A stretch of DNA of 33,212 nucleotides from a virus: IMG/VR virus record IMGVR_UViG_3300017748_000047, positions 1-33,212 of that record; one strand, given 5' to 3'. The notes beneath the pieces are model-generated. The model searched no databases. It was not told where the DNA came from and saw nothing but the letters and a program-made list of their open reading frames with translations. The position numbers and the translations under genes are program-made. Positions 2,210 through 29,471 of this stretch are shown in pieces (the stretch's first letter is position 1; each line of letters starts with the position of its first letter).

Positions 2210-2599
2210 GTGAACGAGCACGGATTTATTAAATCTGTGCATTCACACCTTCCTTCTTCTGTTTATAAGTGGAAGATAAGAGACACATACACCGGGGGCA
2301 TACCCGACGTGTTCTACGCAGGACCCCAGTGTATGATGTTTATAGAATATAAGTATGTAAAAAACTTTCCTGTTAGATCAAAAACGAATATCAAATGTAA
2401 CATCTCGGCGCTGCAGCAGCATTGGTTGCAACGCATGCACAGCCAGGGGCACAAAGTTGCTGTTGTACTAGGCGTAGGTCGTGAAGCAGTTATCATGCTT
2501 GACAAACGTTGGTGTAAACCTATAGCTAAAGAAGACTTTTTAAAAAACAGTTTATCAATAAAACAAATAGCTAAATGGATTGAAAACACATGCATATAG
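2210..2599 (+). CDS. VRR-NUC-like PD-(D/E)XK endonuclease
   Basis: 129 residues, GTG start three bases after the previous stop; no in-frame ATG lies before the conserved core and no clear Shine-Dalgarno is seen. The nuclease core is compact: GGIPDVFY (Asp33), then MMFIEYKY with Glu46-x-Lys48, then SALQQHWL with the helix Gln69/Gln70. The D...ExK...Q order is that of the VRR-NUC branch of PD-(D/E)XK nucleases, which includes stand-alone phage members. VRR-NUC proteins are metal-dependent structure-specific DNA nucleases; in a phage the likely job is resolving branched replication or recombination intermediates. The last 10 bases overlap the next gene. The family call is from visible catalytic residues; the substrate is inferred. 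Confidence 0.8.
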   Translation: MNEHGFIKSVHSHLPSSVYKWKIRDTYTGGIPDVFYAGPQCMMFIEYKYVKNFPVRSKTNIKCNISALQQHWLQRMHSQGHKVAVVLGVGREAVIMLDKRWCKPIAKEDFLKNSLSIKQIAKWIENTCI

Positions 2600-3270
2600 T
2601 AGATCTATTACCCCTAAGCATAGGGATGTCAAAGTTAAACTTATCTGAAGAAACTAGGACAACTTTCGTTAATTATATTAACGCAGAATTTAATAGTAAT
2701 GATAACGGCGACACTACAGACACTTGGACTGGGGACCTCTACGGGCGTGCTGACTTGCACAATGTCAAAGAATTTAACCCTTTGTTTAATGAATTACCCT
2801 ACAAACTGCACGACTACTGTAAAACCATAGGCGTCAACAGCGAGCTTTTTGACTTTCATTACGTAAGATCATGGGGCACAAGAGCCCAACATAAAAACAA
2901 TACGCCCGTCCATGCGCATACATATGCCCATCTAGCAGCCGTTTACTACCCACTAGTGCCAGAAATAAGTGGTGACTTAATCATAGGAGCTGACGGTAAC
3001 AAGTGCCACAATGAAATAATCCCAGATTTGTTTAGTGATGAAAGTTATAAAGACCTTTTAACAAACAACCAGCGAGTAGAAAGACACGTTAGCATAACTC
3101 CTAGAGACAACGCTTTAGTTATATTCCCTGCGAAAACTGACCATTTAACTACTTTTAATGAGTCTACAGAAATACGGTATTCAATTGCTATTGATATATT
3201 AATGACTTTAAAAAGCACAGATAACAATGAGTACTGCTTACCACCAGTAGATACCTGGAGAAAAGCATGA
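2590..3270 (+). CDS. 2-oxoglutarate/Fe(II)-dependent oxygenase-like protein (first of two)
   Basis: 226 residues. The C-terminal two thirds look like a double-stranded beta-helix dioxygenase of the 2OG-FeII_Oxy_5 type: a histidine pair, PVHAHTYAH (His108, His110), directly before a hydrophobic strand ending in VYYP; an FPAKTDH strand with the distal His185; and EIRYSIAID with Arg196, in the usual place of the arginine that binds the 2-oxoglutarate carboxylate. Such enzymes hydroxylate proteins, nucleobases or small molecules. The ATG at 2590 overlaps the nuclease stop by 10 bases; an ATG at 2626 (residue 13) is an alternative start and would not affect the fold. The end overlaps the second oxygenase by ATGA. 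The substrate is unknown. Confidence 0.75.
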   Translation: MHIVDLLPLSIGMSKLNLSEETRTTFVNYINAEFNSNDNGDTTDTWTGDLYGRADLHNVKEFNPLFNELPYKLHDYCKTIGVNSELFDFHYVRSWGTRAQHKNNTPVHAHTYAHLAAVYYPLVPEISGDLIIGADGNKCHNEIIPDLFSDESYKDLLTNNQRVERHVSITPRDNALVIFPAKTDHLTTFNESTEIRYSIAIDILMTLKSTDNNEYCLPPVDTWRKA

Positions 3271-3818
3271 CGCTGCAAGACGACTACCTCCCATTAGATT
3301 CTTTTTTACTTAAAGAATTGCAAAACTTTGATACTTGGTTAGAGCTGTCTGACTCAGCTACCGTATACAACGAAGGTCTTGAAGGCGGCTACAAATGGTG
3401 GGATGGCAAAACAGAACCAGTTGACATATGGCAAATGATAATTGAAAAAGTATGGGGTCACTTAGACGTAAATACTATAGCAGGGTTTGAATATTGGGCT
3501 AACGTATTAAGTAAAAACAATGAGCTAAGCTGGCACCAAGACAAGGATGAGAAAGAGTATGACATAAGCGGTAAAACTATATGTCCATCAGTAAGCACCG
3601 TTTACTATGGCTATGACCACCAAGTAGAAGGTGGCTTCATAGAAATAGGGTTACCTAATAGTACAGACAAAAAACAAACTGAACGCATACAACCTAAATT
3701 CAATAGAATAGTAACCTTTGATCCTTCTAGGTGGCATAGAGTAATGCCTATAAAAAGCGGCGTGCGATTAGCATTTCAAATAAATATATGGGAAGACCGG
3801 CCTAGTTTCCTTGAGTAG
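3267..3818 (+). CDS. Prolyl-4-hydroxylase-like 2-oxoglutarate/Fe(II) oxygenase (second of two)
   Basis: 183 residues. The start is supported by GGAG at 3257-3260 and an ATGA overlap with the preceding oxygenase. The iron-binding facial triad is plain: His90-x-Asp92 in SWHQDKD and His157 in SRWHRVMP, followed by Arg167 in SGVRLAFQINIW for 2-oxoglutarate binding. GGFIEIG forms the middle strand, and TVYYGYD precedes it. The order and spacing match small phage 2OG-Fe(II) oxygenases of the P4Hc type, common in marine T4-like and podo-like phages. It probably acts together with its neighbour. The last gene of the rightward block, it ends 17 bases inside the 3' end of the leftward block. Confidence 0.85.
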   Translation: MTLQDDYLPLDSFLLKELQNFDTWLELSDSATVYNEGLEGGYKWWDGKTEPVDIWQMIIEKVWGHLDVNTIAGFEYWANVLSKNNELSWHQDKDEKEYDISGKTICPSVSTVYYGYDHQVEGGFIEIGLPNSTDKKQTERIQPKFNRIVTFDPSRWHRVMPIKSGVRLAFQINIWEDRPSFLE

Positions 3819-14886: not shown

Positions 14887-15260
14887 CAGCCGTCAAACTC
14901 ATCTCGTACATTAAATTTAAGCAGGTCATGTATTGTCATAACCGTGCCGTCGTCGTAAGTAACTTCTATCTCACCTTCGTAAGTGCCAGCAGTAGCAAAC
15001 GTACTAGTAGCGGGAGTGAACGTTACTGTGCCGTCAGATGACGGACTGCCGCCTGTTAAGGTAGCTGACAAAGTAGTGCTGCCCGCCTTTCTTAAAAAAA
15101 GCCTGACCGTGCTGCTTGCTATACTTATAACGTCCCAAGTAGCGGGGTTCTGTGCATCTAAAGTAAACCCGGTTTCAGCTGTATTACTGTCTTTAATGGT
15201 CACAGTTATAACTGGTTTAGTATCACCTACCACATATTTAATCGTATCTGAGTATGCCAT
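14886..15260 (-). CDS. BppU-like tail protein (Ig-like N-terminal domain)
   Basis: 124 residues; TAATG overlap with the lysozyme stop. The start region, YVVGDTKPVITVTIKD, followed by TGFTLDA, STVRLFLRKAG and a GTYEGEIEVTYDDG strand, matches the Ig-like fold of the N-terminal domain of phage baseplate upper proteins (BppU_N, PF10651), which connects receptor-binding proteins to the tail. This is a resemblance seen from strand pattern and motifs, not a search result. At this length it is essentially only that domain. Next to the repeat protein and the fibre, an adaptor between fibre and tail body is the simplest reading. Confidence 0.7.
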   Translation of the reverse strand: MAYSDTIKYVVGDTKPVITVTIKDSNTAETGFTLDAQNPATWDVISIASSTVRLFLRKAGSTTLSATLTGGSPSSDGTVTFTPATSTFATAGTYEGEIEVTYDDGTVMTIHDLLKFNVRDEFDG

Positions 15261-15676
15261 TAGCTTTCTCCAGCTAACATATTGGCGACTCGTTCACTAC
15301 GTTGGCCTACTTGACGAGCGTAGTTACTATCTAGTAACTCAGCTCCGGCACGCTCAAACTCGCCCGCTTCTATGTAAGCGATTGTTTTCTTAAATTGTTG
15401 GAACTTAGATAATCCCATATTAAATACGAGGTTAATCACAGCTTCTTTGCGCTCTGCCGAAAGGTCTAAGAACCACGGGAATGCACGAGCACACTCGCCG
15501 GCGCACCGTGCTATATCGTTCTCAAGCAACACCATGGCTTCTTCTTTAGTGATTCCGACCTCCTGGATATTTCTCCCAACGCCAATAGTGAGCTTGTCCG
15601 CGCTGCAGCGGTAAGGCTTCAGCTCGAGGCCCTCGTCTATAACTAGTTGTTTTTTAAGCCTTTCTAAATCAATCAT
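15260..15676 (-). CDS. Endolysin, GH24 lysozyme
   Basis: 138 residues from the ATG at 15676, which overlaps the holin stop by 8 bases; a longer reading would need a TTG at 15697. The T4-lysozyme-type catalytic pattern is E-8-x-5-T: Glu15 in IDEGLELKPY, then Cys24, then Thr30 in KLTIGVGRN. Cys takes the place of the usual Asp (T4 Asp20), a variant known in the P22/R21-type branch of GH24. The C-terminal lobe has NLVFNMGLSKFQ and a helix with GQRSERVANML, standard for the family. It cleaves the glycan strands of peptidoglycan. There is no signal peptide or signal-anchor, so it depends on a holin for release, and its gene directly follows one. Confidence 0.95.
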   Translation of the reverse strand: MIDLERLKKQLVIDEGLELKPYRCSADKLTIGVGRNIQEVGITKEEAMVLLENDIARCAGECARAFPWFLDLSAERKEAVINLVFNMGLSKFQQFKKTIAYIEAGEFERAGAELLDSNYARQVGQRSERVANMLAGES

Positions 15677-16145
15677 CTGCTTTATGACTCGCACCAAAGT
15701 AAAAACTAGAGATGCCAGAAACTAGACCACCAAGATAACCTAATACTAGGCTAACTATCGTGTCAGAATTTGCATCCGGGGGTTGTATTGTAACTAAAAA
15801 TATGTAACCGATAAACCCAATTAAACTAAATAAGCCAAATACACGGGGCGTCCAGTCACCTTTGTGCGCTTTTCGCGCATCTTGTACATCAGCTGTTTCT
15901 AAAGCAAACAGGTCTACGTCCATCTCTTTGAGCTTAGCTTCAAAGTCCAGCTCTGCCTTTTTGATCTCTACGAGCTGTTCGGGGGTAGCATTCTGTACGG
16001 CTTTTTCAATAGATTGGGGGTCAGCTTTGCACCCTAATACAGCAGAGATAGCCTGTGCAGCAGTGCCGCCAAGCGGTCCAGCTAATGCTGTGCCCAGTGT
16101 GGGTGCGACTGCACCTATTAACCCTTTAATTGCACCAAAGTTCAT
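15669..16145 (-). CDS. Holin, GTA 3-TM type
   Basis: 158 residues; ATGA overlap with the preceding small gene and 8-base overlap with the lysozyme. Order: a Gly/Ala-rich hydrophobic N-terminal segment (about residues 4-36, TLGTALAGPLGGTAAQAISA), a charged helical middle (about 48-95, with QLVEIKKAELDFEAKLKEMD), then two clear transmembrane segments (about 103-121, VFGLFSLIGFIGYIFLVT, and about 131-150, VSLVLGYLGGLVSGISSFYF). This matches holins annotated as GTA_holin_3TM (PF11351), named after gene transfer agents of alphaproteobacteria. The neighbouring lysozyme, without a signal, confirms a holin-endolysin pair. The holin sets the time of lysis by making holes in the inner membrane. Confidence 0.85.
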   Translation of the reverse strand: MNFGAIKGLIGAVAPTLGTALAGPLGGTAAQAISAVLGCKADPQSIEKAVQNATPEQLVEIKKAELDFEAKLKEMDVDLFALETADVQDARKAHKGDWTPRVFGLFSLIGFIGYIFLVTIQPPDANSDTIVSLVLGYLGGLVSGISSFYFGASHKADD

Positions 16146-16919: not shown

Positions 16920-19900
16920 CTATATTAACGGTATTCCAGTAAACGGAATGGATCTTTTTATAACCTTATCAAAGTTACCTTTATAAGTATCTTCTGCTAC
17001 ATCTTTTGCAAAAGACACTGTAGGGCCTAATAACGAAGCTGCGGGGTCAATTACTCCTAAGTTACCCCAGTCGTCGGCTTTACGTGCGTCTACTAGCAAC
17101 TGAGCTGGCCCAAGCCAACCTGATCGTTGTACTAGTTCCCACATGTATTCTGGGTAATCCATTCGGTCAGTTCTAAAGTAACGCCAGTTACCGTTCTTGT
17201 ATTTAGGTGATTCACCTAAACCTTGATACATGTAAGCTAGGCCAGTCTTGCCATACTCGCGTAACTCAAGACCAAACGCTGCTAATGGCAAGGTAGTTAT
17301 AGCTAATAAAGCAGCGGTACTACCGACTAGACCATATTTTTCTATAGGCGTAGCGCCCTCTTCTTGCCTAGTCTGCATTTCTCTATACACACCACCCATT
17401 ATAGTAGACGCGTATGCATAGAAAAACGACTTCAACTGCCAGATAATTGCAAAGCGCGGGTCAGATGCCCATAGCGGACGTTGCGCAGAATCTGGGCGCA
17501 TAATAGAGCTTTCTACAAAGCGCGATACTGCCTCGTCTACGCGCTGCCCCTCTGGAGTAGTTAAGTCCCTATCGTTCTTTAACCACGCTTTTACTGTTGC
17601 GCTATCCAAACCTAACTGGTCTAGATACCGTGCGGCAACTTTGCTCTTGCCGTGGTTTGGGTCGTCAGCTATCTCAGCTTGGCGAATAATAAACTGCACG
17701 CCCATGCCGCTAGCAAATATTCTTGAGAAGTTAGTAAACTTAGTAAGGCCGTTCAACATGAAGGTAAACTCAGTAATCTTACGGCCTCGCTGTGTCATGA
17801 AGTCTGCTTCTGACTGCGATACGAATGCGTTAACAATAGCGTCGTTTGATACTAATCCTAAATCTTCTGCTAGTTTCTGCATGTCTGCAGCTGTAGTTCC
17901 TGGGTCTGCTTTAAACTCAGATAATATGTTCTTCAAGCCTGCGGATGCAGACGCGAAGTCTTTAGAGTTTATAAGCGGGCCAGCTAAATCAGGTATAGAA
18001 GATAGGGTTGCAAACGGCAGTATAGTTACAAACTGAAATACCTGCGCGTAAGTGTTTACTACTTTAGGGTCAAACAAAGTTCTTTCTTTACCAAGAATAT
18101 TTGCTTTTATAGGCTTCATAGTAGAAGACGTATAGCCTAAATGCGCTTTAACTATATCGATTGTTTCTCTGTGCGCTCTAGGGTCTTTCTCTTCTATTTT
18201 AGCTAGTTCTTGTTGGAACAGGTTTGTTTCGCCATCTTCAGACATAGTGTGGCGTTTCCACTCGCCACGTTTGATCATCTTAGCTAGATAAATAACTAAG
18301 GCTGATTTATTGTCCAAAGTGTAGCTTGTGCCATCGGGGGCAACTAACACACTGGGGTCAATGCCCGCTGTTAAAGTTCTTGCTTCCTCTGCTTTAGAAG
18401 CAGGGTCAGTCCAATCTGTGTTTTCTATATTACCTGTTTCATTTACAACAGCATCTTGGTACTTAAGTATACGGTCGATGGTTCTAGCTACTTGTATGTA
18501 GTTAAGCTCTACGCCTTGTTTAGCTCGCTCACTAAGAATAGTTTGCATAAAATGGTCACTATTTCTAGCTATATTGTTTAAGTCTAAAACTACAGGCGAA
18601 TAGTTCTCTTGGTAAGGTACACTGAAACCATGGCCAACTTTACTTATATAGTCTTTATAAAATGACTCTAGATACTTTCTTACTTTAACCGCTTCTGGTC
18701 TCTTAAGATTAGCAGTTGGCGTGTCAGTAAATGCTTCGGTTAGACCTGCTTCTACTTCTGGAGAAGACAAGTCGCCTACGTCTTTATATAGCTTAGTAAG
18801 CCATTTGTTCTTTTGTTTTGTAGACGCTTTGATAAACCCTAGGCCTGCTTTTTCTTGTGACCGAATTTGCATCATGTCAGCTATTTCGGGGGAGTGTCTA
18901 CGAACCATAGCATCTGTAGTACGTGCGAGCATTTCTAATGTGTGCCAGTCATCCGCTATACTATCTTTAGCGTGTTTTAGTATATATTTAGCTAAGTCAT
19001 CTCTTGTGTTAGATATTTTGCCAGTTAGCTCTTCTTCTGCAAAAGCTTCCTTAGTGCTTTCATAACGGTCTTTGCCTTTAGAGTTCATTTCTTTAATGAC
19101 AGCTCCTGCAAACCTAGCAGCGTTGCCGCTAGTTTTGGTTGGAGACACGTCTACATTAGTAGACTTACGGTGCGCATCGTAAGTGTCATTTAGTTCTTGT
19201 CTTGGAACTGCTGCAACTTGACCGCCGATTGGTTGCCCCTCCAAGCCAAAGCCGAATGGAGACACCACGTACACCGCGTCATCTTCGAATGACAAAATAC
19301 TAGCCTGCTCAGCTTGTGTTTTAGATCTTCTATCAAAGAAACTCCTCGGTGGCGCACGCCCTCGATCTGGTTTTTGTGTTCCGCCACCTTGGGAGCGTTG
19401 ACGATTAGTCATTAAGACTTCTTCCATATAAGTTCGGAAGTCTGTTTTAACTTCTCCGCCAAACCGTCGACGCATCTGCGCGTTCATCTTGTTAAAGAAG
19501 TCTCTAAACCTGCGTGCTAGTCTAGCGAAATAAGCCTCGGTCTGGTTTTTTGGTTTGCCCTGTCTTTTACGACGTATTTCAACTAAGTCTAGGTGTTCAA
19601 GAAACTCTTTTCTTGTAGCGCCAGCTTTGGTCGTATTACCATCTTCATCTTGGTAAGTGTATGACTTTCTGTACTTGTCAGCAGTCTCTGCTTCAAGTTT
19701 ATTAAACTCATTAGCTGCAGTTATTGCTAATTTTTTAGCGTCATTTATTGCTTTTTCCAATTCAAAAGTAAGAACCTGCGCGTCATGTAGTTCACTAGTT
19801 TGCGCTTGTCTTGCTTCTTCTTGAAGTTTTTTAACTGTAAACTCAGCCTCGTTCATAGCTCTTATTATTGCGGCTTTCTGAGCTTGTATTTCAGGACTGC

Positions 19901-22900
19901 CAGTAAACGCATCTCGGTTGTAACGGCCGGTTTCTTGAGAGGAGACAGTGTATATCCACTTAGATACTTGATCTGAGTACCATTCTTCAAAGCCATTTTT
20001 CCCCTCGTATGGGTTGTTAGGTTTATTCCAGCTATCCCTGTCTTTTATAAATGACTTATTAAGGCGTGCTCTTATCTTGTTAAAGCCCTTAGACGCTTTT
20101 TCTTGTTCTAAGAAAGCGTGGCCTATTTCGTGACCTACGGTGTAAACCTGTCCAGCTAAGTTAGCTGTACCATCTACAATAATAAAGTCAGCTTCTAAGC
20201 CTTTGCCACCAACGTAAGTACCGACCGTTGAGGTGTTTGGGTCTGCTATAACTAAGAGTTGAGTGCGTATCTGCGTAAGTAATTTTTCAGCAGCCCGGCC
20301 TTGATCGATGTCAAAAAGATCTGCTGTAGTGTTCTGTACGCTCTTGTTTGCTTGACGACGTACATCTTGTAAAAAGTCGGGTAAGTTTAAGCTATCAACA
20401 GGTGGTATAACGCTGCCATCACTACCTAAAACTTCTTGTGCGGTATATATGTATACTGGTTTTGTTAAGCCCAGTTCTTTTATACCAGTTTTAGTAAGGC
20501 GTTGAATTTCTTCGCCTATAGAATTAGAGAAAAAAGCCGCTGATTTTAGGTCGGGGCCTTGTACAGCACCCATTCCAGCCGTTCTATTACCTAAGTTTAT
20601 AAAACCACCTACGTCGAAATCATAGTCATTGAGGCTGGTATTTACTAATACGTCCTTAACAAGTCGACTGTCCTGTACTACATATGACTTGGGCCCTAGT
20701 GGTTTAGTAGAGCCTGGACGACCGAGCGCACCTTCTGACCCATCAGCAATATCACCGATCTCAACCCCAGATACATTGCTAGGGTCTAATCCTAGCGGGT
20801 CATGTATGTCAGTAATAGAGTCAAGTCGATCTTGTAGCCTAGTAGTAACAGCGCCGTCTTGGTTAATACTGTTATCAATCTTGTTAGCCTCACGGCGTAA
20901 TGCCATAGCAAGTGTAGTCGTAGTTCTGCCGTCTTCTAAATTTATTTGTTTTGTGCCGTCTGGGATAGAGTACCCAAGCATAAGTTCATATATAGAAGGC
21001 TCTGGTGCGCCGGTAGCGTCGTTATACATCATTGAGTCTTTTGATAAGATATGTTGCATATCTTTAAAGCCTAGCAAAGTTTGAACTAAGCCAGTTACGT
21101 CAGTTGACCCGTCACCTATCATGCCAAGGACCATATCAACTGCGTCGTGTTCTTCTCTGATTGCAGTCAACACTGCATCTATATCGCCGGGCGCGTCTGG
21201 ATAAATCTCTCTAGTAGTAAGCATTTCTGTAATACTTACTGGCTGGCCATTAACTATAGCCGCTGTAGTGTATCGAGGTTCTTGTAAAGTTTTAGTAATA
21301 GCAAAAATTTTTCTTTCGAGTTTAGTTTTCTTTTGCTTTAGCGCCGGGGTTAAAGTCGTTCTATTAATCTCATTGTTTAGATTAAACAACTCGTCTTTAG
21401 CTTTTCTTAATTTAACGCGTTGGTTGTGTAAAGTAGTAAACCCAAACTTACCGGCTTCAGCGTTATATTTTTTAAGGGCTACGGATTTACCAATAAGTTG
21501 ATCTATGCGGCCTGTTGGTTTAGTAGTAGTTCTTTGCGGCGTTGTTAAATCAAACCTTTGTTGTATCTGTTTCATGTTGTTCTCAAAGGTCTGCTTTAGC
21601 TTTAAGAACTGAGCTGGTTTAATTTGGCCTGTTTTTACTGCAACTTCAGCGCGTTTCATTGCAGCAAGCTGCCGTTCAATAGTTTCTCTTTCGACTATAG
21701 TTAAACCGCCATAGTTTCGTTTAGCTGGAGCTGTTGTTCCAGGCAACGCTTCTGCGCTAGGCGCTTCTTGTAGTAGTAAAGATATAGAGACTGGTGATCC
21801 TTTGTTATCAACCGCTGGTATAAGCACGTCGTAACCTTGGGTTATAAGTTCGCCTAATATTGCTTGCAAGTTACGCTTTGCTTTTACTTGCTGGTTACCT
21901 GCGTATGCCGCGTCCTCCTCCACTTCTTTAACGCCTTTAACTTGTGCTTGGTTTATGTTCCCACCGCCTCTAGTCAAAGCAACTAAACTAGCGTTTGGCT
22001 TGCTAGGCATCTTCTCGCCTTCCTTAACTAAGAAAATATTTCTAAACTCTTGTTTAGAGCCTTTCGCGTCTCTGATAGCTATATCAACTGCTTCGGCTAC
22101 AGTTACAGCTCTTTGTTGTCTGGTTTCTCGATCTTTAATAAAAGTAGTTGGATCATCAGGCCCGCGCTCGAATGCCGTCTCTTCAGTGGGTGTTATTGTT
22201 AACCTTTGATTATCGCTTAAAACACCACCTGTAGTTATTTTAACATCTAACGTAGGATCGGCTTCTTTAGCAGTAGAAGCTGCGTTTAAGATTGCTGTAT
22301 TTAATCTTTCAAAGAACGGCTTGCTAAAGTCTATTGGATTACCGTCTTGTTGAAACTGCTGGCCAAGTACGGCTTGGAATCTAGCGCGAGCTTCGTTTGT
22401 ATTGTCGTATATAACACCGGCGTCTTTTGCTTTAAATAATTGAGACACGGGCGCTGGTAGCTGCGCAAAGTCGTTAGAGTCAAACTCTGAAAGGTTTAGT
22501 TCTTGTTTTTCTTGAGTTTGAGGAGTGCCCTCCTGTTCTATATCTACGTTTGGATCAGTATCTTGGTCAGTTTCTAAGTCAGGAGCAACAGTTGGCCCGA
22601 GGTCTTCTGGCGCTACGTTCATTTCTTTGAAGACTGGCCCTTCTTCATCTTTTACTAAGTTAGCCCGCTCTGCTAATACTTCTGATACTGGTCGTACTGC
22701 AATGGAGCCGCCTTCTGGCTTTAACTTTTCAGCGGCTTCCATAGCTTGGTTTAGTACATTAGGTGCAGATGAATCGACGCCTTGCTCAGATACAACGCGT
22801 CCTTGTTTATCTTTAACTTGTACTACTGACTCGCCGCCGCGTTTAACATCGCTGTAGCCTAACGCTCTAGCCAAAGAGTATTCGTCGGCATCTTTCTCTA

Positions 22901-24566
22901 AAACGTCATCCATAGCTTGTCGATTAGTAGTATATATAGTACCCCGGCCAGGTATGTGTGAAGCTAGCATTGGGACACCCTTATAGCTAATCTTACTAAA
23001 CCTAGGTGCCAGTAGAACTTTCTCTGCTTTTACTGGCGGGCCTTCTCTCCAAACGGTGTCTTTTGTACTAGAGGGGTCTACGACTGCATCAAGCTGGGCG
23101 GTGATTACAGATTGTGGTTCTGGGTCAGAGTAGAAAGGGCTTGCGTCTACAGGTCTACCAGAGACTTCACTATCAACTTGCCTATCGATGCGCATTTGTC
23201 GAGCTTTGTTAACCATCTGCTCGGCTTCATAAATCACGCCTGATGTAGCATCTGTTGCGGCTTTTCCAAAAGCCTGTACGTTTTTGTTCTTAACTACGTC
23301 GCGTTTCATGTTTCTGTAAGCGGCTTGCGCACGAGTCATTTCTTCGTACGAGCCATCTTCGTTTTGATATACGACTTTTTCATTTGCTATGTCACTAATG
23401 CCAGCGGCTGTCTCTACAACTGTGCCTACTGAAGTACCTATAGCGCCGCCGCCAATGAACCCGCTGAACGCTGCTTCTGCTATTCTTAAAGCTGCTTCTT
23501 CAGACCTAAACTGGAAGTTGGCGTCCATGTCAGCACGGTTTAACACTGCTAAAGTTTCTTGTGCAGTTTCAGCAGCACCTTCGACCGTGGCTGATTTAAG
23601 GCCAGCAGCTCCAATACGTTTTAGCGTTTCACCTGTGTTCTTTGCAAAGCTAGAAAGTAAGCTGTCTTTTACGTTTTCTTTAGCAGATTTTTTAAGTCGC
23701 TCTTTAGCTACGTTGAGTAACAGCTTAGCCATGAACGCTTCGCCGCCCACGCCTATAGCAGCTTGCATAGAGCCTAGAGCTGATGATCTTAGAACTAGAT
23801 CACTGTCAAGATCTCTACCAGATTGAAGACCTTCTTTTATGTTACTACCAGTTAGAGGCTCAAACTCAGACACGAACATACCTGTCAGAGCACCGTTGCG
23901 TACAAACTTGTAAGTGTTATCTGCCAAAGCGTCTTCGGCGGGGGTAGATATTTTTAATCGTTTACGTGTTAAAGAGTCTCTTATTAATTTAGAAGCTACT
24001 TCTTTAGAACCTTTTTGGCTAAGTTGCGAGCCTAAGATACCCGAAGCGGCTATTTTATTTGCTCCTACTATGCCGCCTTTTAGTCCCAAACCATACAAAC
24101 CACCTGCTAGCATTAGTGACATTGAGTCTATGGCGGATGGAATTATCTGGCCAGTAGCCGAAGCTGCGGATTGTAAGAAGCCATCGAACGAGGGTTCATC
24201 AATTAAGTTCTTTCTAAATTTAGGTAGTTCTTTAGAAACTGCGTTCTGTTGTATCTCATAGAACTCAGCTTTAGAGAGGTTGTCGCTAGGGTCCATTCCG
24301 AACAAGACATTAAAACCAGCGCGTGATCTAGCACGGTCGGCTCGCAAGCCAGCGGTGCCGGCAGCTATACCATAGTCAAATATCTCTCCTATGGTATCTA
24401 TTTCTGGTTTGCCTTGGGGTTCTACATAAACAGGTCTGCTAGTAGTATCTACAGGTCGCAGGCCAGAAGTAGTATCGGGTTTAACTATGGCGTTGCTATA
24501 TGGATCGGGGTCCGATAAAGAACCGCGACCTAAGAATCGTTGGAGGGCTAATTCGCCCTCGCTCAT
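16920..24566 (-). CDS. Giant internal virion / ejection protein with zinc metallopeptidase motif (T7 gp16-type position)
   Basis: 2548 residues; ATGA overlap with the 1001-residue gene. It holds the place of T7 gp16, the largest ejected core protein, but is almost twice as long and lacks a visible lytic transglycosylase motif. Features in order: hydrophobic Gly/Ala-rich segments at about residues 130-165 and 365-388; an acidic linker (about 658-690); a long helical middle; a metallopeptidase site HEIGH at 1479-1483 with a likely third ligand Glu1527 or Glu1528 in GFEEWYSDQ (gluzincin pattern); a very basic patch near 1650-1700; and a C-terminal module with ASDPRFAIIWQLKSFFYAY (about 2362-2380) and a hydrophobic segment (about 2412-2434). 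Such multi-domain proteins enter the cell with the DNA and form or protect the DNA conduit. Membrane insertion and peptidase activity are inferred. Confidence 0.85.
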   Translation of the reverse strand: MSEGELALQRFLGRGSLSDPDPYSNAIVKPDTTSGLRPVDTTSRPVYVEPQGKPEIDTIGEIFDYGIAAGTAGLRADRARSRAGFNVLFGMDPSDNLSKAEFYEIQQNAVSKELPKFRKNLIDEPSFDGFLQSAASATGQIIPSAIDSMSLMLAGGLYGLGLKGGIVGANKIAASGILGSQLSQKGSKEVASKLIRDSLTRKRLKISTPAEDALADNTYKFVRNGALTGMFVSEFEPLTGSNIKEGLQSGRDLDSDLVLRSSALGSMQAAIGVGGEAFMAKLLLNVAKERLKKSAKENVKDSLLSSFAKNTGETLKRIGAAGLKSATVEGAAETAQETLAVLNRADMDANFQFRSEEAALRIAEAAFSGFIGGGAIGTSVGTVVETAAGISDIANEKVVYQNEDGSYEEMTRAQAAYRNMKRDVVKNKNVQAFGKAATDATSGVIYEAEQMVNKARQMRIDRQVDSEVSGRPVDASPFYSDPEPQSVITAQLDAVVDPSSTKDTVWREGPPVKAEKVLLAPRFSKISYKGVPMLASHIPGRGTIYTTNRQAMDDVLEKDADEYSLARALGYSDVKRGGESVVQVKDKQGRVVSEQGVDSSAPNVLNQAMEAAEKLKPEGGSIAVRPVSEVLAERANLVKDEEGPVFKEMNVAPEDLGPTVAPDLETDQDTDPNVDIEQEGTPQTQEKQELNLSEFDSNDFAQLPAPVSQLFKAKDAGVIYDNTNEARARFQAVLGQQFQQDGNPIDFSKPFFERLNTAILNAASTAKEADPTLDVKITTGGVLSDNQRLTITPTEETAFERGPDDPTTFIKDRETRQQRAVTVAEAVDIAIRDAKGSKQEFRNIFLVKEGEKMPSKPNASLVALTRGGGNINQAQVKGVKEVEEDAAYAGNQQVKAKRNLQAILGELITQGYDVLIPAVDNKGSPVSISLLLQEAPSAEALPGTTAPAKRNYGGLTIVERETIERQLAAMKRAEVAVKTGQIKPAQFLKLKQTFENNMKQIQQRFDLTTPQRTTTKPTGRIDQLIGKSVALKKYNAEAGKFGFTTLHNQRVKLRKAKDELFNLNNEINRTTLTPALKQKKTKLERKIFAITKTLQEPRYTTAAIVNGQPVSITEMLTTREIYPDAPGDIDAVLTAIREEHDAVDMVLGMIGDGSTDVTGLVQTLLGFKDMQHILSKDSMMYNDATGAPEPSIYELMLGYSIPDGTKQINLEDGRTTTTLAMALRREANKIDNSINQDGAVTTRLQDRLDSITDIHDPLGLDPSNVSGVEIGDIADGSEGALGRPGSTKPLGPKSYVVQDSRLVKDVLVNTSLNDYDFDVGGFINLGNRTAGMGAVQGPDLKSAAFFSNSIGEEIQRLTKTGIKELGLTKPVYIYTAQEVLGSDGSVIPPVDSLNLPDFLQDVRRQANKSVQNTTADLFDIDQGRAAEKLLTQIRTQLLVIADPNTSTVGTYVGGKGLEADFIIVDGTANLAGQVYTVGHEIGHAFLEQEKASKGFNKIRARLNKSFIKDRDSWNKPNNPYEGKNGFEEWYSDQVSKWIYTVSSQETGRYNRDAFTGSPEIQAQKAAIIRAMNEAEFTVKKLQEEARQAQTSELHDAQVLTFELEKAINDAKKLAITAANEFNKLEAETADKYRKSYTYQDEDGNTTKAGATRKEFLEHLDLVEIRRKRQGKPKNQTEAYFARLARRFRDFFNKMNAQMRRRFGGEVKTDFRTYMEEVLMTNRQRSQGGGTQKPDRGRAPPRSFFDRRSKTQAEQASILSFEDDAVYVVSPFGFGLEGQPIGGQVAAVPRQELNDTYDAHRKSTNVDVSPTKTSGNAARFAGAVIKEMNSKGKDRYESTKEAFAEEELTGKISNTRDDLAKYILKHAKDSIADDWHTLEMLARTTDAMVRRHSPEIADMMQIRSQEKAGLGFIKASTKQKNKWLTKLYKDVGDLSSPEVEAGLTEAFTDTPTANLKRPEAVKVRKYLESFYKDYISKVGHGFSVPYQENYSPVVLDLNNIARNSDHFMQTILSERAKQGVELNYIQVARTIDRILKYQDAVVNETGNIENTDWTDPASKAEEARTLTAGIDPSVLVAPDGTSYTLDNKSALVIYLAKMIKRGEWKRHTMSEDGETNLFQQELAKIEEKDPRAHRETIDIVKAHLGYTSSTMKPIKANILGKERTLFDPKVVNTYAQVFQFVTILPFATLSSIPDLAGPLINSKDFASASAGLKNILSEFKADPGTTAADMQKLAEDLGLVSNDAIVNAFVSQSEADFMTQRGRKITEFTFMLNGLTKFTNFSRIFASGMGVQFIIRQAEIADDPNHGKSKVAARYLDQLGLDSATVKAWLKNDRDLTTPEGQRVDEAVSRFVESSIMRPDSAQRPLWASDPRFAIIWQLKSFFYAYASTIMGGVYREMQTRQEEGATPIEKYGLVGSTAALLAITTLPLAAFGLELREYGKTGLAYMYQGLGESPKYKNGNWRYFRTDRMDYPEYMWELVQRSGWLGPAQLLVDARKADDWGNLGVIDPAASLLGPTVSFAKDVAEDTYKGNFDKVIKRSIPFTGIPLI

Positions 24567-27500
24567 TGTGCTGCCTGTCTAGCTAATTCTTGTTTGAAAC
24601 TAGTAGACATTTGAACTGCGTAACCACCCTCGTGTCTTGCTTTCATTGATTGGTTAGCAATCCTTTGTATAGCGCTTCTAGGTATATAAGCAGCTAAAGC
24701 GTCTACAGACACTGTGTCATCTTGGTATTGAATCTCGGGGTTTGATGGATCCATTATAGCGAAACCCGTGACTCGATTACCGTCCCATATAGGGCTTAGT
24801 AATAGGCCTGTGTTATTTGGAGAGGGTTCAAGTATAGCGTCTTTTATGCCTAGGTCAGCTACAAATTGACCGGCGTCTTTACCGCCTGGGAGCATTCCAA
24901 TAACACCGCCTAAAAAGTTGCCTAATGCGTCGAAATTTCCTCCATTAAGTATAACAGTGCCAAAATCTTGCTCTTGTTTAATTGCTAATGCGCCAACTAA
25001 TTCAGTCGCAAATGTTAACATCTGGCTGCTGAGGAGCTCTTTTGTATCTTGATTTGTAGCTGAATCTATAGCCAAATTGATTTCATTAAAAGCATTTTTA
25101 GCGGCAGTTCTAGCTTTTCTGGCAGCTCTGTTCTTGCCAAAAAGACCTTCTTCGACTATTTCGCCATCTGGACCAAACAAAGCGCTACGGGCGTTGTTCA
25201 GGGCGTCAACTGCGGTGGGAGTATCTATCCCTAAAGTGGCAAAATTATTTTCATCTCTTTTATTAGCAGCGTCGGTAATAATAGCTAGATTTTTAACATT
25301 CTCAGCTGCAACCATAGTATCAAAATTCGCTTCCTCTGTTTTAACTTCAATAGCGTTTTTATTATTCTCTATTTGTTTCGCGATGTTATCAAGATCTAGG
25401 CCTTCTATTTCTAGTTCGCCTTTTGCTAGGTCTATTCGTTCTTGTGAAGCGCTGAGACGCGCAGCGGCTTTACTGGCACTTTCTGCTGCTAGCTGGGCAG
25501 CGGTTGTTGCTTGCCCTTCCGTAAATCCAGTAGCATCTAGAGATTCTATCTTGGCCATAATTTCTTTTTGGGCTTCGGCGTCGCCGTTTGTTGCAAACAA
25601 CAACGAAGCTAAACCCATTTGCTGTTCTTGAGTAGTAAGAATTTGAAAATCGCTAAGCTCTTTAACTTCTTTAGCGTTTAAATACTCTCGATAAGCAAAA
25701 AGCTCACCGTCGTTAAACGTTAAATCGCCGTTTTGTATTCTAGCTAATAGTTGGCTAGGGTCTGTAATTCCTTCAAGATAAGCTGTGCTATTTAATATAG
25801 TAGCAGTTTTATCTCTATTTTCTAAAGCGCCAGCATATGCTGTTGATAAAGCGTCCTCTGGGAACTGTTCAGCAAAAGCGTTAGCTAAAGCATCCGTAGA
25901 TTGTTGGCGGACATTGTTAGCTTGTAAGTACTTCTCTTGTATTGCTTTAGGCATATCAGAGAAACTACCGTGTTTCTGCATAAACCTTTCCATCATTTTT
26001 GTTGATTGATCGTAGGCTTCAAGAGGATTTTTATATGTCTTTTCACCTAAGACTTGTCGAGGCATTTTACCGCCCACTACACGGTCAGCAGCTACTGTAA
26101 ACGCGCCTTCAGGTGCAACAAACGTTCCGTCTTCTATTTGTTGTCTTATGTTTTGAACTAGGTCGGTAGCAGCGTCTCTAGATAGCTCAGAAGCGTTCAT
26201 ATAGTCAACTGTAAACGGACTATTTGGAGCGTTTTTAGCAACGGCGTTTGCAAAACTTAACGTAGTATTAACTAGATCTTCTGGGCTAGTGTCAGCGTCA
26301 GGAGCTTTTGCGGCTTTATACTCTCGAGCTAGCTCTGATATAGGACGATCAAACCGGCCTGTCTCATCACCTGCGAACTGAACTGATTGCTCTATGGCTA
26401 TCTCATCTTCTTTAGAGTCTAACGCTACATTTACTGACTCCCTTAACCTTGCTTCTTCAGTTGGATTATGATGAGCCAGCTGGGCAGTGATTTCTATTTC
26501 ACGAGCAAACTCATTCTTGCCCGCTTCTTTCATAGAAGTAATTATTCCCTCGACATTATTATGTAAGTCTTGGCTTTCTGTCATTGCTTTTAAAGCTTGT
26601 TCGCCTTGTCTTGCGACAACAGGATTTGGGTTATTAGCCATCTGTTGCGCGCGTTTGTACAGTGCGCCGGACACACCTGTGTTGGCCCAAACCTTTGTTG
26701 CGCCTAGCGCGTTTGCATGTACAAGCAGGTCTTCAAGAGGCATGCTTGTAATGTCTTCTTGAGCACTACTGCCACCTTGATCAGTAAGGTATATCTTTTC
26801 GCCGGCTTCATTTTGGCCGCTTATTGTGTACTCCGTGCCTATAGTAACGCCGGCTTGTTTTTGAAAGGATAAAAGTGCTTTGTCTGTTTCTGGCTGACCA
26901 TATAAACCCGAAAATACTTCTTCGCCGTTAGCGTCTCTTACTACTACGACCTGATCCATATCAGTCCAACGGTTTTCTTTGGACACTGAAGCCATTTGAT
27001 TAAAGAGGATTAGTAATCCGGCCTTTACATTCTTTTTTTGAACTTGGCCTTCTATATTGTCAGGTTCTATTATTGCGTTAAGAGTAGTAGCTATCGCTTC
27101 ATTGTTAAGGTAGCTTCGACCATTACCACCCCCATTATAATCTGAGTCAGTAAGGTTGAGCATCATCATCTGATTATGTGCGCCGTTTGCGGTGTCTATT
27201 ACGTTTTGTTGTTGCGCGGCATCAAGCTGAAGTTCAGCTACGCCTAAGTTTAGTCTAGCCGTGTCAGTTTTGACTCCTTCAGTGATAAGTTGTTGATCAT
27301 AGAACTCGCCTTGTCGCTTCGATGTATCGGTTTGCTGTCTAACTAAATCACGATTAACTTTGGCAGTTAGTAAGTTGTCTTTGCTAACTCTTAAGGCATC
27401 ATTTAGCGTAAGCGCATCTCGGGCATCTTTTCTAACGGCAAGATCATACTCACGGTCAGCTTGTTGTCTAGCTAACTGAAGTTTACCTTCAGCTGTGTAT

Positions 27501-27568
27501 GCTCCAGTAAAGCTCGCCGCTAGATCAGCGACGCCTGGACCTGTTAGGTTGCTATAGTATTTAGACAT
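24563..27568 (-). CDS. Internal virion protein, T7 gp15-type position
   Basis: 1001 residues; strong Shine-Dalgarno GAGGT before the ATG at 27568. It is almost wholly helical and polar: long Ala/Gln/Glu/Asp/Lys segments (about residues 25-130, and 640-770 with QATTAAQLAAESASKAAARL), no catalytic motif, no signal peptide, no TM span except a Gly-rich segment at about residue 890 (FLGGVIGMLPGGKD). Length and order (after two gp14-like genes, before the giant protein) match T7 gp15, which forms the periplasmic tunnel with gp16 during DNA ejection. The function is inferred from that order. The stop overlaps the next start. Confidence 0.75.
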   Translation of the reverse strand: MSKYYSNLTGPGVADLAASFTGAYTAEGKLQLARQQADREYDLAVRKDARDALTLNDALRVSKDNLLTAKVNRDLVRQQTDTSKRQGEFYDQQLITEGVKTDTARLNLGVAELQLDAAQQQNVIDTANGAHNQMMMLNLTDSDYNGGGNGRSYLNNEAIATTLNAIIEPDNIEGQVQKKNVKAGLLILFNQMASVSKENRWTDMDQVVVVRDANGEEVFSGLYGQPETDKALLSFQKQAGVTIGTEYTISGQNEAGEKIYLTDQGGSSAQEDITSMPLEDLLVHANALGATKVWANTGVSGALYKRAQQMANNPNPVVARQGEQALKAMTESQDLHNNVEGIITSMKEAGKNEFAREIEITAQLAHHNPTEEARLRESVNVALDSKEDEIAIEQSVQFAGDETGRFDRPISELAREYKAAKAPDADTSPEDLVNTTLSFANAVAKNAPNSPFTVDYMNASELSRDAATDLVQNIRQQIEDGTFVAPEGAFTVAADRVVGGKMPRQVLGEKTYKNPLEAYDQSTKMMERFMQKHGSFSDMPKAIQEKYLQANNVRQQSTDALANAFAEQFPEDALSTAYAGALENRDKTATILNSTAYLEGITDPSQLLARIQNGDLTFNDGELFAYREYLNAKEVKELSDFQILTTQEQQMGLASLLFATNGDAEAQKEIMAKIESLDATGFTEGQATTAAQLAAESASKAAARLSASQERIDLAKGELEIEGLDLDNIAKQIENNKNAIEVKTEEANFDTMVAAENVKNLAIITDAANKRDENNFATLGIDTPTAVDALNNARSALFGPDGEIVEEGLFGKNRAARKARTAAKNAFNEINLAIDSATNQDTKELLSSQMLTFATELVGALAIKQEQDFGTVILNGGNFDALGNFLGGVIGMLPGGKDAGQFVADLGIKDAILEPSPNNTGLLLSPIWDGNRVTGFAIMDPSNPEIQYQDDTVSVDALAAYIPRSAIQRIANQSMKARHEGGYAVQMSTSFKQELARQAAQ

Positions 27569-27580
27569 TACTTACCTCAA

Positions 27581-28318
27581 TTATAAGAACGCTAACAGCG
27601 CTAGTCCGCCACCGACCGCTGCGCCTGTCGCTGCGCCAGCTACCGCTCCAACAGCTACGCCAGTTGCGATACCGCCGACTATGCCTTGCGTGCGTTGTGC
27701 TTTGCGCATTTCTGATGCGGCTTTATCGGCTTTAATTCGTTCAGCTTCGTTTTTAGCAGAAGTAGACAAGCCTTCCATAGACCCTTGATAAACTTTTTGG
27801 CCTATGTCTAATAAACTAGCTCGTTTTTGTTTGTTAAGATCATATTGCGACATTGCGGCGTTATTCACGCTGTCTAATACGCTGAGAGTGCCTGCGCCTA
27901 CGTTATATCGACCCTGTTGGCGCCTTTGTGCAGCTGTAACTTCTCCGCCGAACCTTTTCATATCTCGGCCAGTTATACCTTGCGCTAAGCCAAATGACCT
28001 TGCTGAAGTAGGCGCGGCTAAGTCTATTAAGCTACTGTCTTTTGCAGCGTCTTCAAGCAGACCTTTTTCAAAAGATTCAAAGTTATTTTTATAAAAATCG
28101 TAATCTTCTCTAGCAATCCGAGCGTACTTGTCAGTTGGTTTTTCTGGTTTGTTTGAAGCAGAGAAACCACGCGCTACTCTGCCAAAAAACGAATTTGCTA
28201 AGCGGTTTTCGTCCGCCCTTTTTTTAGTAGCCATCTCAGTTTGAGCAGCGCCCAGGCCCATTACGCCGCCTGTATTCTCTGCTACGTATGGTTTAGCTGA
28301 AAGTTCAAATGTAGCCAT
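27581..28318 (-). CDS. Internal virion protein with C-terminal Gly/Ala membrane segment (gp14-like)
   Basis: 245 residues. Residues 1-205 are polar and helical with many Arg/Lys/Glu/Asp and SFGLAQGITGRDMKRFGGEV in the middle. The last 35 residues are a glycine/alanine-zipper membrane segment (GIVGGIATGVAVGAVAGA, GAAVGGGLALLAFL). This arrangement resembles T7 gp14-type proteins that insert in the outer membrane on ejection. A second protein of similar size precedes it. A 12-base gap follows to the gp15-type gene. Confidence 0.7.
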   Translation of the reverse strand: MATFELSAKPYVAENTGGVMGLGAAQTEMATKKRADENRLANSFFGRVARGFSASNKPEKPTDKYARIAREDYDFYKNNFESFEKGLLEDAAKDSSLIDLAAPTSARSFGLAQGITGRDMKRFGGEVTAAQRRQQGRYNVGAGTLSVLDSVNNAAMSQYDLNKQKRASLLDIGQKVYQGSMEGLSTSAKNEAERIKADKAASEMRKAQRTQGIVGGIATGVAVGAVAGAATGAAVGGGLALLAFL

Positions 28319-28330
28319 GTCTTATGTTAC

Positions 28331-29011
28331 CTATTTTAAAAGGAAAGGGTCTTGACCCATGCCTGTGACATCAAAACCAGATTGATCGCTAAGATCGGGC
28401 ATCCCGCGTCCTGTTGACCCGTCTCCAAATCCGCGTGCTTTAGCATTTTGACCGGCCATACTACTCCCTGAAGGCGGTTCAGTAGCAAAAGCTTGTCTAG
28501 CCTTATAAGTACCATAAGAGCCGGCTAGGGACTTGGCTCCGTCCATAACTATAGATACCTGCTCTGCTCTTCGTTTTTGCTCTGCCATATACCCAGATAG
28601 CGCAATATTACTATCTATCTTAGCAGCGTCTCGTAAGCTAGTAATAGCCCCAGCGGCTAATTGTCTACCGGATGCTAGTGCCCTTATTTGATCTTTAGAC
28701 TTTAATTCTTTAGCGTTCTTCTCAGCATTCATTATGCCTTTTGCTAATCCCTTACCTAAAACAGAGGCGCCGCCTGCGCTTGTAGTTATTGCATATTTAC
28801 CGGCGCCGGTTTGCTGAGTCTTTTGCATCATGTCAGCGTTCATTCTAGAGCCAAATATGCCTGAAAAGTTTACAGCCTGAGCGTCTGCTTTTTGTTGGAG
28901 TATAACGGGGCGCACGTATTTTTTTACGAATGCGTGTTCTTTTTCGGCTATTTCTGCGCTGGCTCTTTCATTAGCAGTGGGGCCAGGAGCTTTAGATTTT
29001 TTCTTACCCAT
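28331..29011 (-). CDS. Internal virion protein (gp14-like, first of two)
   Basis: 226 residues; start overlaps the preceding stop by 8 bases. Lys-rich start (MGKKKSKAPGPT), then helices with many Ala, Gln and Lys, a Gly/Ala segment (KYAITTSAGGASVLGKGLAKG), SLRDAAKIDSNIALSGYMAEQ, and a Gly/Ser/Asp-rich disordered C-terminus from about residue 175. The pattern 'Ala/Lys helices plus disordered tail' and position between the gp13-like and gp15-like genes fit a gp14-type core protein. It shares SLRDAAK-like helical character, but no clear sequence identity, with its neighbour. No enzyme motif. Confidence 0.65.
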   Translation of the reverse strand: MGKKKSKAPGPTANERASAEIAEKEHAFVKKYVRPVILQQKADAQAVNFSGIFGSRMNADMMQKTQQTGAGKYAITTSAGGASVLGKGLAKGIMNAEKNAKELKSKDQIRALASGRQLAAGAITSLRDAAKIDSNIALSGYMAEQKRRAEQVSIVMDGAKSLAGSYGTYKARQAFATEPPSGSSMAGQNAKARGFGDGSTGRGMPDLSDQSGFDVTGMGQDPFLLK

Positions 29012-29471
29012 TTACTACCTTCTTAACTACAATTGTGTCAATAAACCAACCGTGGTTCTCTGCATATTTAGCTACTTCAGGAACGGTCGTTTCGAACATT
29101 AGTTTATCGCAACCTATTTCCCTAGCTAAATCCTCCATTAGAGGAACATAATCATCACTTAACCTATGGCCGTGCCTATTTTTGTTCCACGTATACCATA
29201 GTACTAACTCTTTGCCTTTGTACGGCTGTTCTATCGTACTGAGTATAGCAAAAAATTCTCTATTCTCGTCTATATATAAATGACCAGATCCATTAACGCA
29301 CGCTGCATATACATCCTCTGGTATCTGTAACGGGTCAGGATCAGCGTTCTGTATGTACTCTAATCCGGGTCTGACCCAAGACCATTCTTTCTTAATATCA
29401 GAAGGAATTAGTTTTGTGGAGCCTTCTCCCAGAATATTTTCTTGTGCTTCTGATGCTTGTGAGTCCGCCAT
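29004..29471 (-). CDS. T7 gp13-like protein with acetyltransferase-type fold
   Basis: 155 residues. The start at 29471 lies 74 bases inside the end of the preceding gene and is fixed by a strong AGGAAGGT (29477-29484). The sequence shows GNAT-like order: strands YAACVNGSGHLYIDENREFFAILSTI, then LVLWYTWNKN, a helix with YVPLMEDLAREIGCDKLMFE, and then EVAKYAENHGWFIDTIVVKK, the classic 'helix, strand, ...GF' end of the fold. Similar proteins stand in the T7 gp13 place (a core protein that is present in the head or required for its assembly). There is no clear acetyl-CoA pyrophosphate loop (Q/RxxGxG/A), so activity is doubtful. Confidence 0.7.
   Translation of the reverse strand: MADSQASEAQENILGEGSTKLIPSDIKKEWSWVRPGLEYIQNADPDPLQIPEDVYAACVNGSGHLYIDENREFFAILSTIEQPYKGKELVLWYTWNKNRHGHRLSDDYVPLMEDLAREIGCDKLMFETTVPEVAKYAENHGWFIDTIVVKKVVNG

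Follow-up and report, generated by a model that had tools for sequence, protein, structure and literature searches.

Our results indicate that P0001, the 2548-residue product of a gene in the window (the whole stretch of DNA analysed here, a 33,212-base virus record from a short-tailed phage represented by environmental sequence only), belongs to a family of polyvalent-type ejection proteins with a near-universal gluzincin core. We give an even chance to the overall explanation that this is a gp16-type ejection protein with an M78-related gluzincin whose likeliest function is self-processing, and we infer that it is ejected, binds zinc and cuts peptides. P0001 would thus be a large internal (ejection) protein made up of an N-terminal part, the gluzincin, and a helical ejectosome module with a membrane-like segment. 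The features concerned lie in the window as follows.

16920-24566, minus strand: ejection/internal virion protein gene (product P0001, 2548 aa; ATG start, ORF call)
21819-24395, minus strand: N-terminal region, residues 58-916, family-conserved at ~30% identity (blastp against full-length relatives)
19767-20516, minus strand: gluzincin-like metallopeptidase region as modelled, residues 1351-1600, core about 1371-1546 (motif, model, profiles)
20118-20132, minus strand: HEIGH, residues 1479-1483, with predicted zinc ligands H1479 and H1483 and predicted general base E1480
19971-19991, minus strand: FEEWYSD, residues 1526-1532, with E1528 the predicted third ligand and D1532 a predicted second-shell residue (E-x-x-S-D)
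19341-19571, minus strand: conserved helical segment after the zincin, residues 1666-1742 (blastp)
16932-18983, minus strand: C-terminal all-helical ejection module (C-module), residues 1862-2545, phrog_30152 / 6958 (PHROG, PhiM1 gp48 fold match)
17259-17336, minus strand: hydrophobic segment, residues 2411-2436, KD 1.82, also present in relatives
24563-27568, minus strand: upstream gene, 1001 aa, presumed partner ejection protein (position only)
27581-28318, minus strand: upstream gene, 245 aa, phrog_594, present in 69 loci
15260-15697, minus strand: separate Phage_lysozyme gene, 145 aa (Pfam PF00959, 1.8e-14)

The P0001 gene runs from 24566 down to 16920 (2548 codons), its start overlapping the stop codon of the 1001-aa gene that precedes it, and is placed among late virion genes by its PHROG neighbours and by a conserved order of adaptor (phrog_399, SU10_adaptor), phrog_437, 155-aa gene, 245-aa gene, ejection gene and BppU-like gene. 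The model (pTM 0.81) shows nothing but helices in the C-terminal 690 residues, and the sole significant PDB match of the C-module is 8vb2_A (E 8.5e-5, probability 1.00, with low TM-scores of 0.27/0.18), the tetrameric ejection protein gp48 of phage PhiM1, which is the counterpart of T7 gp16 in the ejectosome (PMC11440229). The C-module falls in PHROG families named virion structural protein, and relatives are annotated likewise. Because gene position, these families and the fold match agree, P0001 is probably an ejection/core protein, as a sequence-only reading of the same DNA had proposed; it would correspond to T7 gp16 and PhiM1 gp48 and be packaged and ejected; sequence similarity of the C-module to T7 gp16 or the PhiM1 tetrameric ejection protein was not significant in hmmsearch/hhalign. 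Compared with these two proteins, P0001 has a comparable place among the ejection genes and a similar helical module, but it is about twice as long, with a zincin added and the transglycosylase absent. The hydrophobic segments expected at both ends proved unequal: the C-terminal one, at 2411-2436, is strong, and 59 of 62 full-length relatives retain it, whereas the N-terminal stretches are weak and reach a KD of 1.6 in 13 of the 62.

The 1001-aa neighbour (24563-27568, minus strand) has no recognisable homologue in the loci compared, which suggests that it is either evolving very fast or has been replaced. Between the connector and ejection genes, 52 loci keep the 155-aa gene (29004-29471, minus strand), which is weakly assigned to phrog_610 and looks acetyltransferase-like by eye, with no Pfam match. 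In the window C-module, a match to Glyco_hydro_43 (E 0.018) fell well below the cut-off and was disregarded; LPD38 (PF18857) did not match the C-module, and a control was unmatched as well, so that this comparison is uninformative.

The strongest evidence for an enzyme comes from conservation of the putative zinc site. HEIGH at residues 1479-1483 and EEWYSD at 1527-1532 are found exactly where the sequence-only reading had put them, in a gene on the minus strand, and HEIGH is the single HExxH in P0001; with 19 His and 174 Glu among its 2548 residues, chance would give 0.0097. In cultured phages, tblastn matched the C-terminal part alone, in 15 records including Aeromonas phage phiA008 (31.9%) and Pseudomonas phage KPP25. 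A first search of IMG/VR gave four relatives, the three distant ones (20-31% over length) retaining HE[IL]GH and FEEWYAD, and 243 relatives came from a subsequent profile scan, which used a F[ED]EW[YF][AS]D pattern and so biases the set toward the motif; 80 of them were kept. Among 84 motif-bearing ORFs, 82 have HExxH and the other two HEALGH, with a one-residue insertion; E1528, W1529 and D1532 do not vary among the 46-47 representatives that stand for this motif-selected set. Since these relatives had been found through the FEEWYAD-type pattern, conservation was recounted from an unbiased rescan in which the C-module was the sole query and zincin sequence was absent; two MAG loci from the C-module scan of genome contigs were included. 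With 75 ORFs having enough upstream sequence, the zincin profile aligns with all 75, and HExxH followed at the right spacing by E-[WYF]-x-[AS]-D is present in 74 (64 distinct domain sequences). The positions of E1528 and D1532 are invariant in these 74, and that of W1529 is not always W.

This recount also bears on the third zinc ligand, for which E1527 and E1528 had both been put forward: the 74 relatives never depart from E at position 1528 but have E, D or N at 1527, which makes E1528 the expected ligand and eliminates E1527. Thermolysin has an E-x-x-S-D motif with a second-shell Asp, and the invariant D1532 is a second-shell candidate by likeness to it. Loss of HExxH in homologues, which the sequence-only reading had counted against itself, is seen in one of the 75, on a Neomarinimicrobiota MAG contig (L091), where the histidines and the glutamate are lost and the whole domain is still aligned. 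In this ORF (L091:3442-10866) the zincin lies at residues 1581-1790, and its degenerate HExxH and Glu motif make it a natural dead control. In the zincins of L053 and L056, HEALGH replaces HExGH and thereby becomes HExxxH, a form that occurs in DPP III. HExxxH variants are also reported for some polyvalent MPTases by Iyer et al. (PMC5512222). When genome contigs were scanned, the zincin profile gave no confirmed match and the C-module matched two MAG contigs only, both with phage gene order. At the corresponding place in MW202615 (L089:27793-34293), a 2166-aa 'DNA repair protein' carries HELGH and is matched by neither profile.

Structure prediction and profile comparison relate the domain to peptidase M78. 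The model of residues 1351-1600, built from 46 sequences, has a mean pLDDT of 77 (about 90 in the core) and is ordered as helix, strand, helices, two strands, HExxH helix, helix and Glu helix. This is the same core layout as that of polyvalent MPTases, described in PMC5512222 as three strands with an N-terminal helix and two C-terminal helices. HEIGH thus sits in a zincin-like predicted core, as had been anticipated, but Foldseek of the model against the PDB gave nothing significant at E<0.001 (best E 0.39); against BFVD there was one match at 8e-4, and the IrrE/SprT-like models listed there reached a probability of 0.85, while a sequence search of the PDB with the zincin returned HExxH-local matches only, to many zincins. 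Peptidase_M78 (PF06114) is matched by 22 of 46 members, best in L032 (2.7e-7, from HExxH through the Glu motif); at the Pfam cut-off of 22 bits L032 (30.8) and L008 (22.8) pass and the window protein (13.3) fails. Profile-profile comparison with a profile built from 22 M78 domains of bacteria gave Prob 94.4 and E 8.9e-8, covering the edge strand, HExxH and Glu helix, whereas the C-module, used as control, gave Prob 0.1 against the same profile. HExxH lies on a predicted helix and the downstream Glu in an E-x-x-[AS]-[DN] helix that aligns with the M78 Glu helix, so the gluzincin-type site suggested earlier is supported by motif, invariance, predicted topology and the M78 match together.

We conclude that, as far as sequence can tell, the domain is an M78-related gluzincin and not a member of M78. 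The HExGH and E-x-x-A-N/D helix are common to M78 (ImmA/IrrE) and the zincin clade, but in the clade the two helices lie further apart, with a longer insert of 41-50 residues, and the domain sits inside a giant virion protein. Six related records searched with the MPTase-PolyVal profile (PF18818) yielded nothing at E<=10. NADAR hits in some relatives were treated as spurious; in L003, where the position is visible, the hit overlaps the zincin Glu helix. It could still be argued that HExxH arose by chance in a helical protein with no zincin at all, as the window protein, taken by itself, matches no family significantly and its M78 score of 13.3 bits stands against a cut-off of 22. However, this idea, to which we attach almost no probability, is refuted by the 74/75 conservation and the M78 profile-profile match, and an expectation of 0.01 per protein also speaks against it.

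The modules that accompany the zincin differ among the relatives. An N-terminal wall hydrolase and the zincin occur in one polypeptide in eleven relatives: a T4-type lysozyme in L011, L020, L040 and L082, an SLT-like module in L037, L041 and L063, and a phrog_873 / tail injection transglycosylase-like fusion in L002 (same contig as L031), L045, L046 and L077. Other additions are an N-terminal SNase in phiA008, a cpYpsA/SLOG domain in L004 and L050, and an HHH domain in L037 and L063. In P0001 residues 58-916 yielded no named domain and no wall hydrolase in Pfam and PHROG searches, nor did these searches detect one elsewhere in the window ejection protein; an insertion separates its zincin from helical segment 1666-1742, and the 145-aa Phage_lysozyme is probably the endolysin, outside the ejection protein. 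The idea of a polyvalent protein is supported by the relatives, in which lysozyme, SLT, SNase, HHH and SLOG modules are fused to the same core; in the window protein itself the zincin was the only enzymatic domain to be found. From the sequences compared, the zincin is the constant enzyme of the family and the hydrolase an optional one, and the two activities would be independent.

These fusions argue against the proposal that the metallopeptidase is present instead of a transglycosylase: because eleven relatives hold a wall hydrolase and the zincin together, the zincin is not a replacement, and the window phage merely goes without an optional hydrolase. The related proposal that the zincin substitutes for the T7 gp16 transglycosylase in wall or envelope passage, opening a peptidoglycan peptide or an envelope protein, could draw on the missing hydrolase in the window ejection protein and on the ability that a metallopeptidase might in principle have to cleave cross-linking peptides. 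We nonetheless regard it as very improbable, given that the zincin is kept alongside a T4-type lysozyme, SLT or transglycosylase-like module in one polypeptide and that M78-like zincins are not known to act as wall peptidases.

Another explanation is that the zincin fold serves packaging or assembly and that its catalysis is dispensable. In favor of such a structural relic, the MPTase region of N4 is required for encapsidation of a protein that is packaged uncut, according to PMC5512222, and the degenerate domain has been retained in L091. It is, however, hard to see why all catalytic residues should persist in 74/75 while the rest of the domain diverges, unless for catalysis or metal binding, and we consider this explanation improbable.

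A third possibility, unlikely in our judgment but deserving more weight than the other alternatives, is that the ejected M78-related peptidase is a host-directed effector that cuts a host protein (for example an HTH regulator, a defence protein or an envelope protein) within the first minutes after infection begins. M78 is the nearest cellular family by profile, and its ImmA/IrrE members cleave HTH repressors. SNase, HHH and SLOG in relatives are other possible host-directed modules, and host targeting is among the options given for such domains by Iyer et al. (PMC5512222). Against this, the site hardly changes among phages that are highly divergent (roughly 20-30% identical over the region) and presumably have many hosts, whereas faster turnover is usual for host-specific effectors.

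We favor self-processing during or after ejection, rather than cell-wall opening, as the role of the zincin, with a confidence that falls a little short of even. H1479, H1483 and E1528 would bind zinc, E1480 would activate water and D1532 would orient a histidine; the zincin would then cut the phage's own ejected protein or proteins, such that modules are separated or the channel is remodelled or dismantled. Because the zincin is retained whatever accessory module is present, its target probably goes with the core. Self-processing is preferred since the site is kept irrespective of the accessory domain in very divergent sequences, and since zincins and C-module are naturally split into two ORFs in Roseobacter phage CRP-810, where the C-terminal ejection module sits in a separate neighbouring gp34. 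The CRP-810 gp35 (L087, 2680-11221) contains two zincins, HELAH...QEFFANQ and HEIGH...EEWFAES. It is preferred also because autoprocessing has been proposed for such domains by Iyer et al., who cite DdrB of phage P1, cleaved before packaging (PMC5512222). The same paper reports that N4 vRNAP is packaged unprocessed, which, given its similar layout, counts against self-processing. Moreover, proteolysis is not strictly required, as L091 has lost all catalytic residues and tf gp51 has the C-module and no zincin; no cleavage site was identified. A wider idea, rather doubtful at present, is that of a widespread podovirus group, known so far chiefly from metagenomes, with a self-cutting ejectosome, in which an M78-related gluzincin in the tetrameric ejection protein would cut channel proteins after or during delivery, releasing cytoplasmic modules and dismantling the channel.

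Known systems resemble P0001 in part. The polyvalent phage proteins of Iyer et al. 2017 have zincin-like MPTase domains in injected proteins (PMC5512222); they are also large virion-region proteins in which a zincin (HExxH and a later-helix Glu) accompanies interchangeable effector domains, whereas the window protein shows one enzymatic domain only. N4 virion RNA polymerase gp50 has a C1 HExxH domain and a helical C2 (PMC12633501), so that it resembles P0001 in being a giant protein whose HExxH domain leads directly into an extensive helical C-terminus; in contrast to gp50, P0001 has no RNA polymerase domain (no Pfam/PHROG match), and gp50 is matched by neither of the two profiles, zincin or C-module, with no detectable sequence homology. 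The phiA008 counterpart shares the C-module (31.9% identity) and has HExxH upstream (HELGH ... FDEWFADQ), with the SNase as an extra. KPP25 also has the same C-module as the window protein (1e-73) with HExxH upstream, but its zincin is unmatched by the clade profile: in this large structural protein (L006), HESMH at residue about 1052 is followed by ERIAYMYELW just upstream of the C-module, so that another zincin-like clade occupies a comparable place.

It is therefore already known that injected phage proteins can carry zincins (PMC5512222) and that N4 vRNAP has HExxH followed by a helical part (PMC12633501). The zincin clade described here, along with its natural variants, appears to be new, and so does its almost universal presence in a gp16/TEP-like family whose phages are known largely from environmental contigs. 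The clade with the signature E-[WYF]-x-[AS]-D was not found in the main text of PMC5512222, and searches of the open-access literature gave no relevant description of ejection proteins with a metallopeptidase or protease. These findings touch on the question of how an ejectosome is dismantled and multi-domain ejected proteins are separated inside the cell. The natural controls (a member that lost catalysis, a zincin-less member and a gene-split member) open the autoprocessing proposal of Iyer et al. to direct testing, and the signature HExGH ... [EDN]E[WYF]x[AS]D could be used for annotating proteins now called hypothetical. Elsewhere in the window, 2590-3270 and 3267-3818 on the plus strand form an adjacent pair of 2OG-Fe(II) oxygenase genes (PF13759, PF13640).
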